NCBI GenBank assembly: GCA_947649625.1
Contig: CANSSJ010000010.1
Coordinates: 1-44,018 of the forward strand
Reading direction: 5' to 3'
DNA from: an uncultured Bacillota bacterium
GTDB lineage: Bacteria > Bacillota > Clostridia > Oscillospirales > Oscillospiraceae
DNA length: 44,018 nucleotides
The notes beneath the pieces are model-generated. The model worked only from the letters and a program-made list of their open reading frames with translations. It was not told the origin of the DNA and searched no databases. Below, piece after piece: positions 22,451-33,356 of this stretch. A program made the position numbers and the translations under genes. Within the stretch, counting starts at the first letter, position 1; each line of letters opens with the position of its first letter.

Positions 22451-22509
22451 ATTCCTCCATCCCCCACTTGCGGGGCCGGGGAAATTGTATTAAAATAGGG
22501 AGGCGGGAG

Positions 22510-23868
22510 ATGAATACCATGGAATTGCTGCAAACACAGTCTCAACAGCTTAATTATCAGCAGATGCAGGGGCTAAAGCTGCTGCAGATGAGCTCTCCGG
22601 AACTGGAGCAGTATCTGCGGGAGCTGGCCCAGGAGAACCCCCTGGTGGATCTGGAGCCGGACCCCGCCCCCCGTGAGGAGGACGACAGCCTGCTCAGCTA
22701 TCTGCGGTGGCTGGAGGACAACGACCATCAGAACCTCTACTACTCGCAGATGAGCGAGGAGGAACTGGACCCACTGTCCCGGGTCGGGACGGAGGGCGGC
22801 CTGGAAGAGACGCTGTTCCGTTTTCTCTCCCGCCAGCTCTACGCCATGGACCTGGAGGAGGATCTGGCCGACGCGGTGCGGTATCTGGCCTCCAGCCTGG
22901 ACGGGCGGGGCTACCTTACCGCCCCCCTGGCCGAGCTGGCCCGGGCCGGCCGCTTCCCTCTCCCCCGCCTGGAGCGGGCACTGGAGGTCCTCCGCGGGCT
23001 GGAGCCCGCCGGGGTAGGCGCGGCGGATCTCTCCCAGTGCCTGGAGCTGCAGCTGCTCCGCATCCGGGAGGAGGGCCCCGCCCTGACCATTGTGCGCAGC
23101 CACCTGCCCCTGCTGGCCAAGCGGCATTACTCCTCCATCGCCGGAAAAATGAATATTTCCGTGGAACAGGTGAAGGCGGCCGAGGCCATCATCCGGGAAC
23201 TGGACCCCCGGCCCGGCGCCGTCTTTGAGCGGCCGGAGCAGACCACCTATATCCTGCCGGATATCTTCGTGGACGAGGAGGACGGGCGGTACACCGCCCG
23301 GGCCAGAAGGCCGGGCCGCCCGCCCTTCCAGATCAACAGCTACTACCGCAGGCTGCTGCTTCAGTCCCAGGACCCGCAGGTCAGGGACTATTTGAAGGAG
23401 AAGCTCCAGCAGGCCGAGGGGGTCCTGCGGGCGGTGGACCAGCGGGAGAGCACCCTGCTGCGGTGCGCCCAGGCTATTGTGGACGCCCAGGCTGAGTTTT
23501 TCCGCCGGGGGCCCCAGGCCCTGCTGCCCATGCGCCTGGCCGATGTAGCCGAAACGCTGGGCCTCCACGAGTCCACCATCAGCCGGGCGGTGCGGGAAAA
23601 GTACATCCAGTGTCCCCAAGGCATATACCCCATGGGCTACTTCTTCTCCCGCAGCGCGGCTGCCGGGAAGCCGGGGGTGGGCGGCGTGGCGGCCAGGCTG
23701 CTGCTGAAACAGCTCATCGACCAGGAGGACAAGACCAGGCCCCTGTCCGACCAGAAGCTGGCCGGCCTTCTGGCCCAGGCTGGCTGCCCCGTATCCCGCC
23801 GCACAGTGGCAAAGTACCGCGGGGAGATGAATATCCCCGATCTGTCCGGCCGGACCTGCCCCCTTTGA
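22510..23868 (+). CDS. rpoN: RNA polymerase sigma-54 factor
   Basis: 452 residues from the ATG at 22510 with GGGAGG upstream; an ATG at 22519 is possible. Region I is glutamine/leucine-rich (LLQTQSQQLNYQQMQGLKLLQMS), followed by an acidic stretch (about 45-85), the core-binding domain, the helix-turn-helix LADVAETLGLHESTISRAV (about 350-370) and the RpoN box VSRRTVAKYR near the C-terminus. Sigma-54 directs polymerase to -24/-12 promoters and needs an AAA+ activator. No activator gene and no clear -24/-12 promoter is visible in the window, so its targets lie elsewhere. Confidence 0.95.
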   Translation: MNTMELLQTQSQQLNYQQMQGLKLLQMSSPELEQYLRELAQENPLVDLEPDPAPREEDDSLLSYLRWLEDNDHQNLYYSQMSEEELDPLSRVGTEGGLEETLFRFLSRQLYAMDLEEDLADAVRYLASSLDGRGYLTAPLAELARAGRFPLPRLERALEVLRGLEPAGVGAADLSQCLELQLLRIREEGPALTIVRSHLPLLAKRHYSSIAGKMNISVEQVKAAEAIIRELDPRPGAVFERPEQTTYILPDIFVDEEDGRYTARARRPGRPPFQINSYYRRLLLQSQDPQVRDYLKEKLQQAEGVLRAVDQRESTLLRCAQAIVDAQAEFFRRGPQALLPMRLADVAETLGLHESTISRAVREKYIQCPQGIYPMGYFFSRSAAAGKPGVGGVAARLLLKQLIDQEDKTRPLSDQKLAGLLAQAGCPVSRRTVAKYRGEMNIPDLSGRTCPL

Positions 23869-23878
23869 GCCCCATGTC

Positions 23879-23907
23879 TTGCCTCCGGCGGAAAAACCGT
23901 GTATAAT
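23879..23907 (+). promoter_or_regulatory. Predicted promoter of the 373-residue unknown gene
   Basis: TTGCCT (23879-23884), 17-base spacer, TATAAT (23902-23907), about 35 bases before the TTG start at 23942. Confidence 0.65.
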
Positions 23908-23941: not shown

Positions 23942-25063
23942 TTGCATGTAGATCTGACGGCGCGTTCCGCCGCGGAATATGACCTGCTCCGATCCGGGCA
24001 GATGACTCCGGCCATGGCGGCGGAGTATCTTCGGGAGGGGCGCGTTGTCCCTCGGGGTTTCGCCGAGGTTCTGCGGGAGCTGTATCCCCTGCCCGACCTT
24101 CAGATCAGGCTTCAGGAGGCCTTTCTGGCCGGCTGCCCCGAGGCCAACCCGGAGTCCACCGCCCGAAAGCTGCGCAACTGGCTGTCCGGCCAGAGCACGC
24201 CGGCCAGCCGGGAAGATATCTTCCAGATCGCCTTCGCCCTGGGGCTGTCCGAGGCGGGGGCCGGCACCCTGCTGGGCCTGTGCACCGGCTACGGCATCCA
24301 CTACCGGGACGGTCGGGAAGTGGTCTACGCCTGGTTCCTGCGCAATGGCCGGGGCTATCTGGAGGCCCGGAACTTTTTCCGGACCCTGCCCCCCGTCCCC
24401 CGCCCGGAGGACATCCCGCTCAGCCTCCGCACCCACGTCACCCAGGAGCTGCGGGCCGACTTCCAGCGGGTCCAGTCCCTCCAGGACCTGCGGGCCTGCT
24501 ACCTGGCCAATTTAGAGCAGCTGGGCGCCCTCCATGTACGGGCCTACTCCTACTTTGAAAAATACCTGGCCCTGCTAGTCCGCCCTGCCTCCACCTGGGG
24601 GGAGGAGCGGGAACCCGACTACTCTATCGAGGCCGTGATGGACCAGTACCTGTCTCTGCGGATGCCCTCGGGCCGCAGCCGCCGGAACTACTCCGTGGTG
24701 CAGAAGCTCATCAAGCACAACTGGCCCAACGCCACTCTGCTGAAAAATATCCGCCTGCACCGGGAGGACGTGCCCCGGAAGCTGCTCCTGCTGCTCTATG
24801 TCATCACCGAGAACGGTCTGGACGATACTTACAGTGAGCTGGACGAGGAGTACCTCACTCCCCAGGACCGGCTGGAGGACCACTGGTGGAGCCTGAACGC
24901 CATCCTGTCCGACTGCGGGATGCCCCCGCTGGACCCCCGGAACGCCGCCGACTGGCTGGTGCTCTACGCCGTCACCGCCGTGGACGAGCCCATGAGCCAG
25001 CGGATGGAGAAGGTCATCGAGCTGATGTTCGCCGATGTGACGGAAAAGGACCCCGCGCCCTGA
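23942..25063 (+). CDS. Unknown protein with HTH-like N-terminal region
   Basis: 373 residues from a TTG at 23942, chosen because AGGAGGGG ends seven bases upstream and no ATG or GTG is suitably placed. Residues about 65-115 (STARKLRNWLSGQSTPASRE, then DIFQIAFALGLSEAGAGTLL) resemble the helix-turn-helix layout of XRE-type proteins with a W-L-SGxSxP turn. The rest is mostly alpha-helical with no motif I recognise; no membrane helix or signal peptide is seen. It converges on the membrane kinase gene and shares a terminator with it. A regulator or kinase target is possible but unproven. Confidence 0.65.
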   Translation: MHVDLTARSAAEYDLLRSGQMTPAMAAEYLREGRVVPRGFAEVLRELYPLPDLQIRLQEAFLAGCPEANPESTARKLRNWLSGQSTPASREDIFQIAFALGLSEAGAGTLLGLCTGYGIHYRDGREVVYAWFLRNGRGYLEARNFFRTLPPVPRPEDIPLSLRTHVTQELRADFQRVQSLQDLRACYLANLEQLGALHVRAYSYFEKYLALLVRPASTWGEEREPDYSIEAVMDQYLSLRMPSGRSRRNYSVVQKLIKHNWPNATLLKNIRLHREDVPRKLLLLLYVITENGLDDTYSELDEEYLTPQDRLEDHWWSLNAILSDCGMPPLDPRNAADWLVLYAVTAVDEPMSQRMEKVIELMFADVTEKDPAP

Positions 25064-25081: not shown

Positions 25082-28000
25082 TCATTTCGCGAGCAGATCC
25101 TCCGGCACGCCGGGGGCGGAGCCACCCTCCAGAAGCTCAATTCCCATGTCCCACCTCTGGTCCGTGGCGATTACGCCCCGGTTGTCCAGGGTGCCGCTGA
25201 TCTGGATCGGGATGGACCCGCTGTCCTGGAGGAAGAGATACTCATAGTTGGTCAGCTTCCCGCTGATGGCGGCGTGCCCGGGCAGACGGAGCTCCCCGCG
25301 GTTCACCACCGTCCCGGCCAGCTCCACCGGCTGCCACTCCCAGCCGAAGAGCTCTACCTCCCCCTGGTTTTCCAGAGTGGTATCGCCATCCAGCAGGACG
25401 GAGCAGCTCCGGGCAAACAGCCTGCTTTCAGGGCCGATCTCCACCTGGCAGCCGCGCAGGGACAGGCCGCCGCTGAACCGGGCCGCGCTGCCGTCAATGA
25501 TCCGGATGGACGAGCCATTGAACTCCACCTCTCGGGTGGACAGCAGGGTACCGCCGTCCACCTCCACCGGGGCGCCGGCGCTGAGCGGGCTGTCGAAGGC
25601 CAGCAGGCTCCGCCCTCCAGACAGATGGAGGCCGCCGCAGTCCGTCAGGTCCCGCACAAAGGCCGTGCCGCCCTCCTCCACCCGCAGGGCGCCGCCCCGC
25701 AGGTCCGCATTGCCCAGCAGGAAGCCGTCCGGCCCGGAGATGGTCAGGTCGCCGCTGGAGAGGATCAGTCTGCCGTTCTCCTCCAGCGCCAGCGTCTTGG
25801 TGACAGTGAGCTCCGACTCCAGGACGATCTCCGCACCCCGCTCCACCAGGACAACGCCGCAGGACTCGTCCGCCATGGCCTCCCGGAGCTGAGGACCGTT
25901 GGACACCGTTCTGATGTTTTCCATGGCGTCCCAGGCGAAGGGGATAAACCGGCCGCCGCTCTCCTGCACCATCCGCTCCGGCAGGGCGTCGATGTCCGCC
26001 TGTCCGGCCAGGATCAGGCCGCCGTTCCAGCTCTCGCTGCCCTGGGGCACCGCCAGGGAGCCGGTGGTCCCCGGGAACTCCATGGTGCCGGCGTTGTCCA
26101 GATGTCCGGTGTCGTCCGTCACCCGGAGGGTGCCGCCGTTGTTCTCCAGATGGGTGTCGTTTTGCAGCCAGCCGTTGGCCCTCACCAGGATCTCCCCGGT
26201 ATTATAGGCCCGCAGGTCGTTGGCCAGCCACAGGCGGCCCGCTTCCTTCTCGCCGGGGCCGTCCCCCTCCGCCAGGAGGGTGCCGTAGTTGAACAGACTC
26301 TCGCAGGCAATGTCCAGGAAAAAGTCATTGTCCGGATCGAGGCCGCGCTGGGCCGGACTGCCGCTAATGCCGCAGCTGGCCAGGGTGCCCAGGTTGCAGA
26401 TGTTGATTCCGTCCTTGATCTGGCACTGGTGCAGCCGGATCTCCCCCAGGTTGACCAGGCCGCCGTTTTCAGCCATATGTCCGCCGGCGTCGATGAGGCC
26501 ATAGTTGACGATCCAGGAGGAATTGCTGATCCCCCACTGGCCCATCTGCACATTGCCGCCCTGGATGGTCCCCCGGTTCACCAGCTTGGAGCCGTTGACG
26601 CACCAGGAGGTCCCCTCGGTCAGGGTGACGGTGACCCCCTCGGGGACCAGAACGGAGCACTCCTGGGCAAAGCCGTCCCCGGTCTCGACGGTGATGTCGC
26701 TGTCGATGACCACGGGCCGGCTGTTCTCGTTCAGCGCGGCCAAGAACTGTTTGGCCGAGTTCACGTGGACGGCGGGGCTGGAGAACACCGACTCCTCCGG
26801 CAGGATCAGACGGTGTCTGCCATCCAGAGGCTCGCCGCTGTGGAGCAGGACGGTCCCCCCCTCCTCCAGGGAGAGGTCGGACTCCCACTCCAGCCACAGG
26901 ATGTTGACCCCCTCCAGGGACCCCTGGGGGGCCACCGAGACGGTCCCGCCCCCCTCGGTCCGCAGCAGGCCGTTGACATTCGCCTCTCCCTCCACCCGGA
27001 GGGAGCCTCCCGCCCCAACGGTGACATACTGAACCGTATCCAGCCTGGAGCCGGCCTCCACCCGCAGGGGCTTGGTGATCTCCAGGGGCTCGGTCACGAT
27101 GATGTCGCAGCCCGACAGGGTAATTGCGGTCACGCCGCCGTCGGCCAGCAGGGCCCGCAGCCCGGCCTCGTCCCCGCCGGTGAGGGCCGCCGCATCCTGG
27201 AAGTCAGACGCCGGCGTCTGGACCCCGGGCCCCTGCGACATGTCGCCCGGGGCCTTCGGCCCCAGCCAGGGCCGCCAGATCAGCAGCCCCAGCACAAGGA
27301 GGAAGGCCGCCGCGCAGCCGGCGAAGATCCCGATCTGTTTCTGGCTCCATCCGCTCCAGAAGGCGGGGGCCGCCTCCGGGGCGGGCTCCCCCTCCGGCTC
27401 CTGCTCCGGCTCTGGGGGCAGGACGGGCTCCGCCTCGGGCTCCTGGAAGCTCGCCACCCCTTCGTAGAGGGCGGTGTGCAGCTCCTGGACCGACTGGAAG
27501 CGCCGCCGGGGGGTGGGGGCCATCCCCCGCAGAAGGGCCTGCTCCTGCTTTTCCGTCAGCTCCGCCCCCAGCTTCCGGGGCGGGATCAGCTCGTCCTCCA
27601 CCAGCCGGTCCATGGCCTGGGGCGGCTTGCGGCCGGTGAGGCAGTAGTAGATGGTGCAGGACAGGGCGTACACGTCGGTCCAGGGGCCCTGGCCCTTGCT
27701 CTGGTACTGCTCCACCGGGGCGTAGCCGTGCTTCAGGGCGATGGTCAGGGTGGCCTCGCCGCCGGCGGTCTCCCGGGCGCAGCCGAAGTCCAGCAGGCGG
27801 ACCTCCCCCTTTTCCAGCATCAGGTTCTCCGGGCTGATATCCCGATGGATGAGCCCCAGCTCGTGCATGGAGCCCAGAGCGGAGAAGAGGGGCTCGATGG
27901 TGTGGAGCAGCTCCCCGGCGGAGATGCGGCCGCCCCGCTGCTCCACCAGCTCCTTGAAGGTGGTGCCGTCCACGTACTCCATGACGATGTAGGCGGTGTT

Positions 28001-28411
28001 GTTCACCTCGAAGAAGTCCCGGACGCTGACGATGGTGGACAGCTTCTCCATCCGGGCCATGGTGCGGGCCTCCTGGAGGAAGCGCTCCTTGCCGTTTTCA
28101 TAGCGGCTGCCCGCCGCCCCGGCGTAGCTGGACACGTCCAGCGACACCGAGCTCATCCGGCTGGCCCGGTCGGTGGGGAAATACTCCTTGATGGCCACCT
28201 TCAGCTCCAGCCGCAGGTCGCAGCCGATGTAGGTGATTCCGAAGCCGCCCTCCCCCAGGGCCCGGCCCACCAGGTAGCGGTCCCGGAGGATGGTGCCCGG
28301 GGGCAGATGGTGGTGGGAGGGGGTGTAGCTGCCCTCGGTGAGGCCGCAGACGGGGCAGGGCGCGTCTGGCTCCACCGGAGACATGCAATAGGGGCAGAAA
28401 TGCCGGTCCAC
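25082..28411 (-). CDS. Membrane Ser/Thr protein kinase with zinc ribbon and large repeat-rich ectodomain
   Basis: 1109 residues from a GTG at 28411, which has GGAGGAGGTGAGG just upstream; a TTG at 28453 lies on top of the -10 element. Order of parts: zinc ribbon (Cys 6, 9, 19, 22); kinase domain about 46-316 with GEGGFGITY, Lys 75 in VAIKEYFP, HRDISPEN at 189-196, LLDFGCAR with DFG at 208-210, and GYAPVEQY; acidic Pro/Glu-rich linker; one membrane helix about 359-380; then about 700 extracellular residues of short G-rich beta-strand turns (for example GGTVSVAPQGSLEG, NNGGTLRVTDDTGHLDNAGTM), suggesting a beta-helix. The catalytic-loop Lys of HRDxKxxN is Ser here. It probably senses an outside cue and phosphorylates cytoplasmic targets. 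Confidence 0.88.
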   Translation of the reverse strand: MDRHFCPYCMSPVEPDAPCPVCGLTEGSYTPSHHHLPPGTILRDRYLVGRALGEGGFGITYIGCDLRLELKVAIKEYFPTDRASRMSSVSLDVSSYAGAAGSRYENGKERFLQEARTMARMEKLSTIVSVRDFFEVNNTAYIVMEYVDGTTFKELVEQRGGRISAGELLHTIEPLFSALGSMHELGLIHRDISPENLMLEKGEVRLLDFGCARETAGGEATLTIALKHGYAPVEQYQSKGQGPWTDVYALSCTIYYCLTGRKPPQAMDRLVEDELIPPRKLGAELTEKQEQALLRGMAPTPRRRFQSVQELHTALYEGVASFQEPEAEPVLPPEPEQEPEGEPAPEAAPAFWSGWSQKQIGIFAGCAAAFLLVLGLLIWRPWLGPKAPGDMSQGPGVQTPASDFQDAAALTGGDEAGLRALLADGGVTAITLSGCDIIVTEPLEITKPLRVEAGSRLDTVQYVTVGAGGSLRVEGEANVNGLLRTEGGGTVSVAPQGSLEGVNILWLEWESDLSLEEGGTVLLHSGEPLDGRHRLILPEESVFSSPAVHVNSAKQFLAALNENSRPVVIDSDITVETGDGFAQECSVLVPEGVTVTLTEGTSWCVNGSKLVNRGTIQGGNVQMGQWGISNSSWIVNYGLIDAGGHMAENGGLVNLGEIRLHQCQIKDGINICNLGTLASCGISGSPAQRGLDPDNDFFLDIACESLFNYGTLLAEGDGPGEKEAGRLWLANDLRAYNTGEILVRANGWLQNDTHLENNGGTLRVTDDTGHLDNAGTMEFPGTTGSLAVPQGSESWNGGLILAGQADIDALPERMVQESGGRFIPFAWDAMENIRTVSNGPQLREAMADESCGVVLVERGAEIVLESELTVTKTLALEENGRLILSSGDLTISGPDGFLLGNADLRGGALRVEEGGTAFVRDLTDCGGLHLSGGRSLLAFDSPLSAGAPVEVDGGTLLSTREVEFNGSSIRIIDGSAARFSGGLSLRGCQVEIGPESRLFARSCSVLLDGDTTLENQGEVELFGWEWQPVELAGTVVNRGELRLPGHAAISGKLTNYEYLFLQDSGSIPIQISGTLDNRGVIATDQRWDMGIELLEGGSAPGVPEDLLAK

Positions 28412-28452
28412 GTACCTCACCTCCTCCGGCCGGGCCTGTGCTGATACAGGCA

Positions 28453-28481
28453 ATTATACATAACGATCACCGTTTTCACAA
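28453..28481 (-). promoter_or_regulatory. Predicted sigma-A promoter of the membrane kinase gene
   Basis: TTGTGA (28481-28476), 17-base spacer, TATAAT (28458-28453) on the minus strand, about 42 bases before the GTG start. Confidence 0.65.
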
Positions 28482-28517
28482 CATGGTTTTATGATAGGAA
28501 CGGATACTTTATTTGTG

Positions 28518-28542
28518 TTTTCCCCGCCTGAGGCGGGGAAAA
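28518..28542. terminator. Hairpin after the soluble kinase gene
   Basis: TTTTCCCCGCC (28518-28528) and GGCGGGGAAAA (28532-28542) pair perfectly around TGA. The T/A pairs are part of the stem, so termination strength is uncertain; it separates the five-gene operon from the membrane kinase gene. Confidence 0.6.
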
Positions 28543-28543
28543 C

Positions 28544-29548
28544 CTATCTCTTTCCGCCGAACAGCAGGGTCTTCAGCCTCTGCCACAGGCCGGGACGGGC
28601 ATATGCCTCCGGGAAGAGGGCGCGGCAGAAGGCCCCCATATCGGCGGGGCGCTCCCTGGGCCGCACCGTCAGCGCCCACAGCAGCGCCCCCTCCTGGGCG
28701 GAGGTCAGCTCCGCCCCCAGGGAGGCGGGCAGCTGGAGGCCGTCGTCCAGCAGGCGTTCGGTGGAGGTGGGCGGAACCACGCCGGTGAGGCTGTGGTACA
28801 CCGTGGCCGCCAGGGCGTACACGTCGGTCCAGGGGCCCTGGCCGTGGGTCTGGTACTGCTCCACCGGGGCGAAGCCGTGCTTGAGGAGCACCGTCATGGA
28901 CTTGCCGTCCTCCATGGACCGGGCGCAGCCGAAGTCCAGCAGTTTCAGCGCGCCGGTCTTCATCCACATCACGTTGTCCGGGCTGATGTCCCGGTGGATG
29001 ATGCCGGCGGCGTGGAGCTTGCCGATGTCCTCCATCAGGGGCCGCAGGCGGGGCAGCAGCTCGGCGGCGGGGATGCGGCCCTTCTCGTTGACGATGCGGT
29101 ACAGCGGGGTGCCGTCCAGATACTCCATCACCAGATAGGCGGTGTTGTTGGTCTCAATGTAGTCAATGCCCTGGACCACCGCCGGCATCCCCTCCAGCGA
29201 GGCCAGCATCCGGGCCTCCTCCACAAAGTGGTAGCGCCCGCCCTCGTAGACCGCCTCCTGGCCGGGCAGGGCCTCCACCTGTCCCCCCGGTCCCCGGCGG
29301 GAGCAGCGGGTGGGAAAGTACTCCTTCACCGCCGTGCGGCGGCCGGTCTCCTCCTCCAGGGCGATGTAGGTGACCCCGAAGCCCCCCTGGCCCAGGTGGA
29401 CCCCCAGGCGGTAGTGGTTCTGGTTCCCCTTGAGCACCGTCCCCACCGGGAGGAGGTGCTCCGGGTTGCCGTCATGGAGGCTCTTGCCGCAGTGGGGGCA
29501 GAAGTTCCCCTCCTCCGCGGGCCTCATGCAGTGGGGACAGTATCCCAT
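28544..29548 (-). CDS. Soluble Ser/Thr protein kinase with N-terminal zinc ribbon
   Basis: 334 residues, no membrane helix. The zinc ribbon uses Cys 4, 7, 17 and 20 (YCPHC and FCPHCG). The kinase domain has LGQGGFGVTY near 52-61, Lys 75 in AVKEYFP, HRDISPDN at 185-192, LLDFGCAR with DFG at 205-207, and GFAPVEQYQ near 227. As in the membrane kinase, the catalytic-loop Lys is replaced by Ser. The two kinases share the same opening architecture and are likely paralogues. The start lies one base after the protease gene's stop, so the two are co-translated. Confidence 0.9.
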   Translation of the reverse strand: MGYCPHCMRPAEEGNFCPHCGKSLHDGNPEHLLPVGTVLKGNQNHYRLGVHLGQGGFGVTYIALEEETGRRTAVKEYFPTRCSRRGPGGQVEALPGQEAVYEGGRYHFVEEARMLASLEGMPAVVQGIDYIETNNTAYLVMEYLDGTPLYRIVNEKGRIPAAELLPRLRPLMEDIGKLHAAGIIHRDISPDNVMWMKTGALKLLDFGCARSMEDGKSMTVLLKHGFAPVEQYQTHGQGPWTDVYALAATVYHSLTGVVPPTSTERLLDDGLQLPASLGAELTSAQEGALLWALTVRPRERPADMGAFCRALFPEAYARPGLWQRLKTLLFGGKR

Positions 29549-29549
29549 C

Positions 29550-30944
29550 CTACACCCCTCCCTTGACCGCGATCTGGAACATCTCCGTCTCCGAGCCCAG
29601 ACAGAAGCGGTCGCCGGGGCTGAGGCGGACGGGCTGATTGGCGGTCAGCCGGTTCCCGCCCGGCAGGAAGGTGCCGTGGCTGGACCCCAGGTCCTTCAGC
29701 CAGAGCTGGCCGTTCTCCACCGTCAGCACACAGTGGGCGCCGCTGACTCCCGGGGTATTGGCGGGGTAGACCAGGTCGTTCCGGGCCGGGTCCCGGCCGA
29801 TGCGCACCTGCCCGCTGATGGGGAAGCGCCGGCCGGCAAAGGCGCCGGACACCCCCTGGAGACGCAGTTCTCCCGAAACTGCCGAGGCGGGAACTGCTGT
29901 CTCAGCAGTCTTTTTCCCTCCCGTTTTCTTCCGCAGGAGCAGGATCACAGCGGCGGCTCCGGCCACCCCCACGGCGATCCCGATGACAAGCGCAGGGCTG
30001 GGGCCGCCCCTGTAGGTGTCGTACTGGATATCCAGGCTGTCCAGCACCTTCATCACGTGCTCGCTGACCACCGAGCCGGAGTGGTTGGTGGTGGCGGCGT
30101 TGTCCATGCCGGTGAGGTTGAAGCCGATGGTATTCACCCCCACCACCGCCCCCTTATCGTTGATGAGAGGGCCGCCCGAGTTGCCGCCGTTGATGGCGGC
30201 GTCGTGCTGGATGATGCGGGCGTTCTCGGTGGCGTAGTCCACAAAGCGGGACACCACGCCGGTGGTGATGGTGACGCTCTCCACGCTGCCGGCGTAGTCG
30301 GTGTTGTGGTTCTCGTCGGTGGTGGCGGCATCGGCGCTGAGGGGGTAGCCCAGGGCGTACACCGTGTCTCCCACCGACACGCCGCCCCCCTCCGCCGGAG
30401 CCAGGGGCAGGGCCTTCCGCCCCTCCAGCGGCTCCGCCGCCCGCAGGACGGCCAGGTCAGGCTCGTCCTCCCTCGCCTGGTAGAGCACGCTGCACGGCAC
30501 CACCCGGCTGGTGTCCAGGCCGGTGGCGCTGGAAAAGGCGTAGTCGTCCTTGAGCAGGTAGGCCCGGACCAGCTTAAAGTCTATCTGGGTCGTCATATCG
30601 TGGATCTGGGGGGTCTCCTGGGCCATGGCGTCGGCCTGGGCCTTTCCCAGGGCGAACTGATAGGCCTGGTACATGGTCCAGATCTCGGTGCTGTCGCCTA
30701 CCACATGGCGGTTGGTCACAAAGAGGTCGGTCTCCTGGCCGGCCCTGCCTACGCCGAAGGCCGACCCCACCGCAGAGGTCTCCCCCAGCTTCAGGTCCAG
30801 GTCCACCAGATATACCTCATAGAGGGACAGCACCCGGACCACGCCGCTCCGGCTGTCCGCCGCGGCGTTTTTCGCGGCCAGCGCCGCCGGCATGGAAGCC
30901 AGCAGGACCAGAACGGCCAATATTGCTCCGATCTTTCTTTTCAA
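29550..30944 (-). CDS. Exported trypsin-like serine protease with a C-terminal FHA domain
   Basis: 464 residues. A signal peptide (1-23, ending ALAA) is followed by an S1/HtrA-like protease domain with His 80 (VTNRHVVG), Asp 163 (PDLAVL) and Ser 256 (GGNSGGPL). A membrane helix (about 318-337) with a following RKK stop places the C-terminus inside the cell. There an FHA domain (about 379-445) carries the phosphopeptide-site residues in RIGRDPARND, SGAHC and LGSSHGTFL. The outside part can cut or sense proteins and the inside part can bind a phospho-threonine made by the neighbouring kinases. No PDZ domain is present, unlike HtrA. Confidence 0.88.
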   Translation of the reverse strand: MKRKIGAILAVLVLLASMPAALAAKNAAADSRSGVVRVLSLYEVYLVDLDLKLGETSAVGSAFGVGRAGQETDLFVTNRHVVGDSTEIWTMYQAYQFALGKAQADAMAQETPQIHDMTTQIDFKLVRAYLLKDDYAFSSATGLDTSRVVPCSVLYQAREDEPDLAVLRAAEPLEGRKALPLAPAEGGGVSVGDTVYALGYPLSADAATTDENHNTDYAGSVESVTITTGVVSRFVDYATENARIIQHDAAINGGNSGGPLINDKGAVVGVNTIGFNLTGMDNAATTNHSGSVVSEHVMKVLDSLDIQYDTYRGGPSPALVIGIAVGVAGAAAVILLLRKKTGGKKTAETAVPASAVSGELRLQGVSGAFAGRRFPISGQVRIGRDPARNDLVYPANTPGVSGAHCVLTVENGQLWLKDLGSSHGTFLPGGNRLTANQPVRLSPGDRFCLGSETEMFQIAVKGGV

Positions 30945-30956
30945 TCCGATCTCCTC

Positions 30957-31673
30957 CTATTCCTCCTCCACCCACACGGCGGCGGCGGTATTGTTGTCAT
31001 TGTCCTCCGGAGCCCTGGCGTCCAGCCGGGCCCGCATTTTGTCCAGCCACTCCTCCGGGCTGGCGGCGGCGGCCAGGTCGTCCGCCATCTCCTGCTCCAG
31101 CACATACTCCCAGAAGCCGTCGCTGCACAGCAGGAAGGCGTGCCTGCCCGGCGGGAGCGCCTCCTCCCGGACGTCCACCTTCAGCTCCCCGTCCTGGCCC
31201 AGAGCCCGGAGCACCCGGCTGCGGTCCTCATGGAAGCGGATCTGGTCGGGGGTGATCTCTCCCAGCATCACGCCGATCTGGGCGGCGCTGTGGTCCCGGG
31301 TCTGAAAGGCCAGCCCGCCGTCCCGGAAATAGTAGATGCGGCTGTCTCCCACGTGGGCCATCACCGCCCGGCCCGGTTCCAGGGCCAGCGCCGTCACAGT
31401 GGTTTTCATGGCACACTGGCGGGTCTGGAGGGAGAGCACCCGGCGGTTCCCCTCCTGGATCAGGCGCTCCAGCTCCTCCGGGTCCGCGTTTCCCCCCCAG
31501 CCCTCACAGATCACCTCCGCGGCGGCGGCCGAGGCCTTCTCTCCGCCGCCGTGTCCTCCCAGCCCGTCAGCCACTACCAGGCACAGGCGGTCCTCCCCCC
31601 GGAGGGCCCGGCGGACGGTATCCTCATTGTGGGGCCGGCCTCCCATCTCTGAATAGCTCGCGATCTGGAACAT
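30957..31673 (-). CDS. PP2C-type protein phosphatase (soluble)
   Basis: 238 residues from the ATG at 31673 with GGGAGGCG upstream, the normal length for a bacterial PrpC/Stp-type phosphatase. Metal-site residues are visible in NEDTV, VVADGLGGHGGGEKAS, GDSRIYYFR, LLCSDGFWE and the final DNDNNTAA. It removes phosphate from Ser/Thr residues and would reverse the kinases encoded in the same cluster. It lies 12 bases before the protease gene start. Confidence 0.92.
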   Translation of the reverse strand: MFQIASYSEMGGRPHNEDTVRRALRGEDRLCLVVADGLGGHGGGEKASAAAAEVICEGWGGNADPEELERLIQEGNRRVLSLQTRQCAMKTTVTALALEPGRAVMAHVGDSRIYYFRDGGLAFQTRDHSAAQIGVMLGEITPDQIRFHEDRSRVLRALGQDGELKVDVREEALPPGRHAFLLCSDGFWEYVLEQEMADDLAAAASPEEWLDKMRARLDARAPEDNDNNTAAAVWVEEE

Positions 31674-31708
31674 GCTTTCGCCTCCCGGTCGTTGTGCCGT
31701 CCCCCCGC

Positions 31709-32761
31709 TCAACAGCGCAGGATCACGGCGGTGTAGTTGTCCTGATTGGAGTAGTCTTTTCCCTGGATAGCCGCCCGGATGGCCTCCGCAGCCCCCGGCC
31801 CTCCGGCCAGGATGCCGGTCAGCTCCTCCTCGGTGAGGGCGTTGTACACCCCGTCGCTCATGAGAATAAACACGTCGCCGGGGCGGATCTCGACGGACTG
31901 GGCGGGCAGGTCGGCGTATTTCAGCTGTCCCATACCCAGAAAACTGGTCAGCCCGGAGCCCTGAGGGTGGCTCAGCGCCTCCGCGATGGAGCTCTCGCCG
32001 TTGACGGCCCGGAGGTACAGCTCCTCCCGGAAGACATGCTCCCGGTTGAGCTGGAACAGCGCGCCGTCCCGGCACAGGCAGATGCGGCTGTCCCCCACCG
32101 ACAGGCAGTGGAACCGCCCCTCCCGGAGCAGGGCCATCACCAGGGTGGAGCCGCCGCTGTACAGCCCGTCGGGGCCCAGCATGTCGTTCACCGCCATGTT
32201 GGCCCGGGTCAGCAGGGTGAGCAGCACCTCCTCCGGCGGCCCCTGGAGCATCCCGAAGCTGTTGGCGATGGCGGTCACCGCCGCCTGGCTCACCTGATCG
32301 CCGTTGCTCAGGCCGCCCATGCCGTCCCCCACCACGGCCAGCAGGCCGGGGCCCTGTTCGATCAGCTCCCGGGGAGGAGCGTCCTCCCCGGCGGAGACAA
32401 AAAAGCTGTCCTGCTGGCTCTTCCGGCGGCCCTGCTCGTGGAGCTTCTCAATGGTAACGCACCGGCCGGCGGAGACCCCGGCGTCTTTTTTCCTCCGGAG
32501 CACTTTGGCGATGCCCATTCCGGCCAGCGCCAGCAGGAGCCCGGCGGTCAGTCCCAGCCCCGCCCAGGCGGCGGGCGGGAGCGTCCCCGGCAGCTGTTGT
32601 CCCGGGCCTTCGACGGCGGTGGAGGTACTCCCCATCTGCCCGGAGGAGACCCCCGTCTGTGAGGAAGAGGCTCCCGTCTGCCCGGCCGGCGGCGCGGCGG
32701 GCGGCGGAGAGGAGGCGGCCGCCTCTGGGGCCATCACGCTCTGATTTCCCGCGTCAGCCAT
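31709..32761 (-). CDS. Membrane-anchored PP2C-type protein phosphatase
   Basis: 350 residues from the ATG at 32761, which has AGGAGAG upstream and overlaps the FHA gene stop by eight bases. A low-complexity Ser/Gly/Gln-rich N-terminus (1-60) without signal peptide leads to one membrane helix (about 65-86) and a basic RRKK stop, placing the C-terminal phosphatase (103-350) in the cytoplasm. PP2C motifs: SQQDSFFV, VVGDGMGGLSNGDQVS, VGDSRICLCRD, LMSDGVYNALTEEEL and NQDNYTAVI. A second phosphatase, anchored near the membrane kinase, distinguishes this cluster from the usual single-phosphatase PrkC/PrpC pair. Confidence 0.9.
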   Translation of the reverse strand: MADAGNQSVMAPEAAASSPPPAAPPAGQTGASSSQTGVSSGQMGSTSTAVEGPGQQLPGTLPPAAWAGLGLTAGLLLALAGMGIAKVLRRKKDAGVSAGRCVTIEKLHEQGRRKSQQDSFFVSAGEDAPPRELIEQGPGLLAVVGDGMGGLSNGDQVSQAAVTAIANSFGMLQGPPEEVLLTLLTRANMAVNDMLGPDGLYSGGSTLVMALLREGRFHCLSVGDSRICLCRDGALFQLNREHVFREELYLRAVNGESSIAEALSHPQGSGLTSFLGMGQLKYADLPAQSVEIRPGDVFILMSDGVYNALTEEELTGILAGGPGAAEAIRAAIQGKDYSNQDNYTAVILRC

Positions 32762-33356
32762 TGCCGCTCTCCTGGTTCCAGCTGAACTGCTCGCCGCACA
32801 GGGCCACAAAGATCAGCTTGGTCGTGCCGATGGAGATGACGTCGTAGCTCTTGATCTCCACCGCGTTGAGGACGGTCTTGCCGTTGACCTTGATCAGGTT
32901 GCGGCCGGCGGCGGGGCCTACGAAATAGGTCAGCTCGCTGCTGTCGAAGGCGATCATGGCGTGGTTCTGGCGGGAGATCTGCTGATCTCCCCGGATCTGG
33001 ATATCTCCCGACTCCCTGCCGATGTAGTTGTAGCCGGCGTGGACGCGGTAATCCATCCCCCGCACCGGGCCCTCCACACACACCAGCCAGCCCACCACGG
33101 GCTCGGCCTGGCCGGGATTCCCCTGGTCGCCGCCGATCATGGTCTCCACGCTGAAAGGGTTGGTCCCCCCGGCGGGGGGCGCGGTGGCCCCAAAGCTGGC
33201 GGAATATCCGCCGCCGCTCAGCGGCTCAGTGGCGCTGAAGCCGCCCCCCAGGTTCTCCGTGCCGGGCACGGCGCCGCAGAATGGACAGCTGGCGTGCTTG
33301 GCCCCGTCGTAGTGGTGGCCGTTGGGACAGGTCGCCATGGTCGTCTTGATCTCCAT
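32754..33356 (-). CDS. FHA domain protein with zinc-ribbon-like N-terminus
   Basis: 200 residues from the ATG at 33356 with CAGGAGGG seven bases upstream; an ATG at 33380 lies before the ribosome site. The N-terminus has CPNGHHYDGAKHASCPFCG (Cys 10, 24, 27 plus His), a probable zinc site like that of the two kinases. A flexible Gly/Ser-rich linker (35-85) is followed by an FHA domain (about 103-185) with YIGRESGDIQI, QISRQNHAMI and GRNLIKVNGK. FHA domains bind phospho-threonine, so this is a likely kinase substrate or adaptor. First gene of the five-gene signalling operon. Confidence 0.88.
   Translation of the reverse strand: MEIKTTMATCPNGHHYDGAKHASCPFCGAVPGTENLGGGFSATEPLSGGGYSASFGATAPPAGGTNPFSVETMIGGDQGNPGQAEPVVGWLVCVEGPVRGMDYRVHAGYNYIGRESGDIQIRGDQQISRQNHAMIAFDSSELTYFVGPAAGRNLIKVNGKTVLNAVEIKSYDVISIGTTKLIFVALCGEQFSWNQESGNG

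Follow-up and report, generated by a model that had tools for sequence, protein, structure and literature searches.

A kinase, phosphatase and FHA gene island of an uncultured Oscillospiraceae bacterium as a candidate module coupling phospho-signalling to proteolysis

Whether adjacent kinase, phosphatase and FHA genes can form a signalling unit of their own in a clostridial genome, and what such a unit would do, is the question raised by a stretch of DNA from an uncultured Bacillota bacterium of the Oscillospiraceae (contig CANSSJ010000010.1, positions 1 to 44,018; the full 44,018-nt stretch is called the window below). PrkC is the kinase around which most discussion of clostridial Ser/Thr phospho-signalling turns. 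The window carries, between positions 25082 and 33356, an island of six intact genes, all located on the minus strand. In the reading favored here, to which a probability of roughly one half is given, this island would be a dedicated transmembrane Ser/Thr phospho-signalling module coupling an outside signal to proteolysis. Judged from sequence, its two kinases, two PP2C phosphatases and two FHA proteins are, together with the product of a seventh gene termed P0007, one unit conserved in some gut Clostridia.

The first gene in the order of transcription (32754..33356) encodes a protein of 200 aa, named FHA-Zn, in which an N-terminal CxxGH...CPxC metal motif is followed by a variable linker and an FHA domain. 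The next two genes encode a membrane PP2C phosphatase of 350 aa with a single N-terminal transmembrane (TM) segment (31709..32761) and a soluble PP2C phosphatase of 238 aa (30957..31673). The fourth product, trypsin-TM-FHA (464 aa, 29550..30944), displays a topology, read from its sequence, made of a signal sequence, a trypsin-like protease outside, a TM segment and an FHA domain inside. Two zinc-ribbon Ser/Thr kinases complete the island, the first of 334 aa without TM segment (28544..29548, 1005 bp), the second of 1109 aa with a TM segment and a large ectodomain (25082..28411, about 3330 bp from a GTG at 28411). FHA, PP2C, trypsin and kinase domains were found above the Pfam cut-off; the zinc ribbons are below it or unlisted, and their assignment rests on CxxC pairs, which are N-terminal in both window kinases. 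The same-strand set of two zinc-ribbon kinases, two PP2Cs and two FHA proteins given in a preliminary description of this DNA is therefore borne out in its coordinates, intactness and Pfam domains.

The conservation of this arrangement was assessed on relatives retrieved from GTDB with the FHA-Zn alignment, 452 in number; the best 80 were used for gene-order counts and include two near-identical pairs (L051/L053 and L103/L104). The order FHA-Zn, membrane PP2C, soluble PP2C, trypsin-FHA is found on one strand in 47 of these 80 loci, and the soluble PP2C alone is missing from it in 6 further ones. The full order ends in two kinases before the contig end in 28/80 loci, the remaining loci being cut, of a different type, or fragmented by the selection of open reading frames. 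Intergenic gaps are short, with a median of 3 bases and at most 50 bases in 255 of 307. Close matches to the genes flanking the island in the window (rpoN, TetR, NagC and two ABC genes) were obtained only in L050. Since the order is kept in 47/80 loci whereas the flanks recur only in L050, the genes are associated more than by chance. The separate, mutually dedicated envelope phospho-network of the preliminary description, which a random association of the genes would have refuted, withstands this comparison of gene neighbourhoods. Sixteen more distant FHA-Zn loci, drawn from 30 other genomes with matches (9/23 plus 7/7), have a membrane-type PP2C beside FHA-Zn in 16/16 cases and a trypsin-FHA gene in 6/16, in varied order. 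Within the family, trypsin-TM-FHA orthologues (E < 1e-30) are present in 9 of 150 sampled genomes and FHA-Zn (E < 1e-10) in 16, the own genome being included in both counts; a search of two genomes of the same genus found FHA-Zn in neither. One FHA-Zn island (L124) lies in a metagenome-assembled genome titled Syntrophobacterales, which represents either a transfer outside the Clostridia or a misbinned contig.

The seventh gene was picked out by clustering the non-core neighbours of the island loci. In the window, P0007 (23942..25063, plus strand, 373 aa from a TTG at 23942) is convergent with the large kinase gene. TBLASTN located it in 35 of a set of 92 loci, or in 32 of 87 distinct ones, as five contigs are, by their lengths, contained twice in this set (L035/L092, L036/L087, L037/L070, L039/L090 and L042/L073). 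It was found in 16 of the 17 trypsin-type islands (FHA-Zn/PP2C/PP2C/protease/kinase, with at least 1.3 kb downstream), L091 being the exception. P0007 is mostly convergent and placed after the last kinase, and lies upstream on the island strand in L078, L080, L088, L089 and L090 (and its duplicate L039). P0007 thus remains associated with the island although its position varies. The 150 family genomes gave 7 matches at 1e-10, of which 5 are strong (>500 bits, own genome included) and all fall among the 16 genomes with FHA-Zn. When the own genome is excluded, 4/4 strong matches lie within the 15/149 FHA-Zn genomes, with a hypergeometric probability of 7e-5 that ignores relatedness. The weaker matches are divided between G071, with FHA-Zn, and G143, without it, and a strong match is missing in 11 of the 16 FHA-Zn genomes. 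In G046, P0007 is found on a different contig, where it converges with a large kinase just as it does in the window. The 291 class genomes contain one weak match besides the own genome. Distant relatives in L127, L186, L187 and L190 each adjoin a gene encoding a kinase-domain protein of about 960-1005 aa; L186, the only one of these loci scanned, also gave a weak AAA_16 match.

No convincing match to P0007 was obtained in Pfam, NCBIfam, PADLOC, PHROGs or PDB. A helix-turn-helix nature, suspected by eye, was unsupported: the single protein was negative in Pfam, NCBIfam, PADLOC and PHROGs, and Pfam matches to members of its alignments A2 and A4 were no more than scattered (best E 0.019 and 0.0084, with HTH_32 touched by one A4 member at 0.12). 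Against PDB, the A2 profile matched nothing, and the A4 profile matched CpcN over 27 residues (E 5.5e-4) plus weaker entries, none of them DNA-binding by name.

A candidate switch residue was found in FHA-Zn. Out of 90 FHA-Zn sequences, 87 fit the core-motif pattern (three misfits) and 80 distinct ones were used for linker analysis. The linker preceding the FHA domain is hypervariable, and a single aligned column is Thr in 79/80 sequences; in the window this residue is Thr72 (codon 33141..33143, minus strand), a predicted phospho-site. An alignment-free check located a Thr 10-16 residues before the core in 78/80 sequences, against 37 on average and 51 at most in 1000 trials with shuffled linkers. 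The GR residues through which FHA domains bind phospho-Thr are retained in 80/80 sequences. The best PDB relatives of the FHA-Zn profile are GarA chains (E 5e-7), one of them deposited as Rv1827 pThr 22, a relationship which denotes homology only, as for any FHA domain. The linker Thr suggests a phospho-switch of the GarA/OdhI kind. The metal motif is present in 89 of the 90 proteins, the remaining one being truncated by the contig end, and reads CxxGH in 64 and CxxC in 18, a Cys/His exchange that fits metal binding. The FHA subfamily signature PVVGWLVC ... LCGxxFxW can serve as a marker for locating such islands.

The proposed output of the module is the FHA-linked protease. Kinase, protease and zinc-ribbon motifs were counted by regular expressions with the five duplicate contigs included; simple patterns for the protease His, Asp and Ser motifs were matched by 61, 47 and 65 of 65 proteins. 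The FHA domain of the protease retains GR and SxxH in 47/47. Compared to Do/HtrA proteases, the window protein has Trypsin_2 with no PDZ listed by Pfam, and its Do-family score is 62.7 versus a cut-off of 416.2 bits. A trypsin-type protein is encoded in 67/92 loci (62/87 distinct). The 25 loci without it comprise 16 with PrsW-like-FHA and/or vWA-FHA genes, eight that end shortly past the first genes, and one (L043) that was recruited by FHA similarity and has no FHA-Zn; trypsin occurs together with vWA or PrsW in three loci. Pfam confirmed PrsW plus FHA in L044, L045, L046, L106, L109 and L117, and vWA plus FHA in L110, L118 and L119. Longer FHA proteins with seven TM segments in L107, L108, L110 and L120 match the PrsW query at 1e-23 to 1e-25, and PrsW was not confirmed by Pfam in that of L108, the only one tested. 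In L044, L045 and L109 the gene for PrsW-FHA comes immediately after those for FHA-Zn and the membrane PP2C, before any soluble PP2C; in L106 and L117 it lies upstream of FHA-Zn. The islands thus appear usually to retain a membrane protein whose FHA domain is cytoplasmic and whose other domain varies, and this retention is the main argument for regarding the protease as the output. In addition, the own genome encodes, on contig C15 (L046:8798-10240) and apart from the island, an orphan PrsW intramembrane protease fused to FHA and bearing CxxC pairs at its N-terminus; the 20 kb around it yielded neither a kinase nor a PP2C relative. The gene set of the preliminary description was accordingly right for the six genes, and missed P0007, the linker Thr and the different FHA proteins that other islands encode.

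The kinases would constitute the input. Their motifs are complete in 145 of 150 island kinases, and in 149/149 kinases with the motif the catalytic loop is HRDx[S/A/T/C]P[D/E]N, Lys being absent where HRDxK would usually have it. The ectodomain of the large window kinase (25085..27268, minus strand, about 730 aa) displays NxG repeats in an alignment of 22 sequences. Its profile gave weak matches (E 5e-4 to 2e-3) to three PDB entries, named as a possible adhesin, a serine-rich cell-wall-anchored protein and Awp1A, which we take to be beta-solenoids. The positional equivalent in L184 contains the Pfam pectate-lyase-like adhesive domain Pectate_lyase_5 (3e-13). The ectodomain therefore probably resembles an adhesin-type beta-helix. 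Other island kinases carry MORN, Sel1 or LRR_5 repeats according to Pfam, and we read the island kinases as exchangeable sensors.

The proposed mechanism can be briefly summarized as follows. The kinase with the adhesin-like ectodomain would sense contact or a glycan outside the cell, and the kinases would phosphorylate Thr72 in the linker of FHA-Zn. Phosphorylated FHA-Zn could then act as a GarA/OdhI-like switch or as a scaffold, its FHA domain binding its own phospho-Thr or that of a neighbour. Phospho-Thr sites would recruit the membrane protease via its cytoplasmic FHA domain, leading to proteolysis outside the membrane, and the membrane and soluble PP2Cs would reset the signal. P0007 may be a cytoplasmic partner or an output of the kinases. 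A more specific formulation is advanced only tentatively, as it is rather doubtful in its entirety: a clostridial form of kinase-driven regulated proteolysis, in which an adhesin-like receptor kinase, a zinc-finger FHA switch at one Thr and a phospho-Thr-gated protease would act in series, PrsW-FHA or vWA-FHA proteins would substitute for the protease elsewhere, and P0007 would represent a new class of kinase effector. The island would thus be a self-contained second network for which a receptor, a switch residue, readers, erasers and a proteolytic output can be predicted, and how the signal of a bacterial Ser/Thr kinase is carried to the envelope would come down to one threonine, one protease-FHA interaction and one undescribed partner protein.

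A number of observations weigh against this module. The zinc-ribbon pattern is missing in 20/150 kinases, several of them being whole small kinases of the same slot. The preliminary description had proposed that matching cysteine clusters help to assemble kinases and FHA protein; FHA-Zn has its motif in 89/90 proteins, but the idea is weaker for the ribbonless kinases. The structural matches of the ectodomain are weak at the E values given above, and a Pfam scan of the window's own ectodomain returned no match. The linker Thr is absent from the distant homologue L173 and shifted in L185. The Asp pattern of the protease is loose, so that the motif counts do not establish a full triad for each protein. 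The gene-order count covers the best 80 of 452 relatives, and the agreement between the trees of four proteins (r 0.55 to 0.81) is a statistic without species-tree control.

Among the rival explanations, the one that survives best, although it is unlikely, is a module of the TerY-P or kinase-phosphatase kind serving defence or conflict, in which the kinases and PP2Cs would restrain a harmful activity and release it on attack. The sporadic distribution of FHA-Zn in the family and its absence from both same-genus genomes would suit such a module, as would the combination of vWA, PP2C and zinc-ribbon kinase in TerY-P (PMC11090510, as far as the accessible part of the source describes it), given that vWA-FHA genes occur in related islands; however, the ribbon is N-terminal in the window kinases and the window island has no vWA gene. 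The kinases match PADLOC PD-T4-6 and mad6, and the soluble PP2C matches PDC-M21C; the kinase matches are weak evidence because those models match kinases broadly, and P0007 has no PADLOC match. No relative was found in the phage collection, none of 41 candidate stretches lies in viral contigs, and the island has no gene recognisable as a nuclease or another effector. A link to defence was discarded, as it amounted to broad PADLOC matches of kinase, PP2C and protease with no phage or viral relatives.

Somewhat less probable still is a second, diverged housekeeping system of the PrkC/PrpC type serving wall growth or sporulation. A comparable cluster in M. tuberculosis is fhaA/fhaB-pstP-pknA/pknB. 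Such clustering of FHA, kinase and phosphatase genes (PMC1262709, in the part of the source available) would speak for this explanation, and the best or near-best NCBIfam models are Stk1/PASTA kinase and Stp1. The scores are nevertheless far under the equivalog cut-offs, with 155 and 111.6 of 450 bits for Stk1 and 143.3 and 95 of 230 bits for Stp1, and the catalytic loop lacks the usual Lys in every kinase with the motif. The sporadic distribution and the absence from both same-genus genomes argue against a core housekeeping role, while being compatible with the conflict module discussed above. Moreover, a PASTA kinase/PP2C pair exists elsewhere in the own genome: searched with Pfam, this genome yielded three kinases, the two of the island plus one on contig C77, the latter having PASTA domains and an adjoining PP2C. 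The absence of PASTA from the island, stated in the preliminary description, agrees with the Pfam results for both window kinases. The FHA proteins found in the own genome are FHA-Zn, the protease-FHA and the PrsW-FHA of C15; a six-frame Pfam search by itself missed FHA-Zn. Since an ordinary PP2C/PASTA-kinase pair exists on C77, the island is, as far as gene content can tell, a network separate from that pair.

The least probable explanation, a regulator of a secretion or injection machine resembling the type VI threonine phosphorylation pathway (PpkA/PppA/Fha) or a type VII system, draws on a weak match of the protease FHA to the type VI FHA (TagH) model (34.6 of 120.25 bits, below cut-off) and on the position of distant FHA-Zn/PP2C cassettes, among them that of L172, close to an AHH nuclease-domain gene and to genes that were not recognised, but no secretion gene was seen by eye among the shared neighbour families, type VI core genes not having been searched for, and the type VII link was rejected because the best EssC score in the own genome (94.59% complete) was 43.7 bits against a cut-off of 778.4. 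Distant cassettes of FHA-Zn, PP2C and a long PP2C-like protein were seen in L172 and L169, and also in L170, L171, L173-L175 and L185. Those of L172 and L169, the two loci whose open reading frames were listed, sit in large gene clusters, the L172 cluster consisting of genes without Pfam matches with the AHH nuclease-domain gene nearby. Two Leisingera plasmids (L188 and L189) carry a kinase, an FHA protein of the same subfamily, a PP2C, a P-loop-like or zeta-toxin-annotated protein and two dynamin-family genes.

Returning to the phospho-signalling module, its transcription was examined from the gene junctions, which measure -8 (an overlap), 35, 12 and 1 bases in transcription order, followed by 132 bases to the GTG at 28411. 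The last interval contains a hairpin with a 12-bp stem (28517..28543) and a promoter-like site, TTGTGA-17-TATAAT (28453..28481, minus strand). The promoter scan reports consensus matches only, with 3 found versus 0.7 expected. The near relative L050 retains the TATAAT as well as the GTG start with its ribosome site. Because these elements sit between the two kinase genes and L050 conserves TATAAT and GTG, the start of the large kinase is most likely GTG 28411 and not TTG 28453. For the same reason of separation by hairpin and promoter-like site, the large kinase is probably transcribed from its own promoter, the island then being a five-gene run plus a separately transcribed sixth gene. The tight spacing of the first five genes noted earlier is thus retained, and the promoter, which had been missed, is added. 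Another promoter-like site (23879..23907, plus strand) precedes P0007. The rpoN (sigma-54) gene, at 22468-23868, lies on the same strand directly upstream of P0007, an arrangement that recurs only in L050.

The island was finally compared to known systems. To GarA/OdhI of the actinobacterial PknG pathway FHA-Zn is related through its FHA domain, GarA providing the best PDB relatives, and its own near-invariant Thr, N-terminal to that domain, makes it a candidate for a similar switch; FHA-Zn differs by its zinc-finger N-terminus, its long variable linker and its membership in a kinase/PP2C/protease island, and presumably by its Thr-to-FHA spacing. PrkC/PrpC (Stk1/Stp1) likewise associates a membrane kinase with a PP2C, whereas the island is devoid of PASTA and has two kinases, two PP2Cs and FHA readers. 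TerY-P triads, made of vWA, PP2C and a zinc-ribbon kinase, resemble the island in the last two components; in the accessible part of the source (PMC11090510) the ribbon is C-terminal, whereas it is N-terminal in the window kinases, and the island adds FHA proteins and a membrane protease. Pfam detected no vWA in the six island proteins or P0007, vWA-FHA genes being found only in other islands. The KKP prophage module also has two kinases and a PP2C in a row; as described in the available portion of PMC11341870, its kinase genes are short (900-1300 bp), one with a CSD and one with an FHA domain, whereas FHA-Zn is a separate protein, the island kinase genes measure 1005 and about 3330 bp, and no phage or viral relatives of FHA-Zn were found. 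PrsW-FHA fusions, already predicted to be signalling peptidases, similarly join a membrane protease to FHA; the window protease is of the extracytoplasmic trypsin fold, and the accessible sections of that source (PMC3482391) name no kinase or PP2C neighbours. A search of the open-licence literature found no description of the gene set of this island, in agreement with the earlier statement that no named system has this exact set. Modules of kinase, PP2C and FHA are already known, and each of those considered differs from the island in a tested feature, with the exception of GarA/OdhI, where the comparison concerns a predicted switch.

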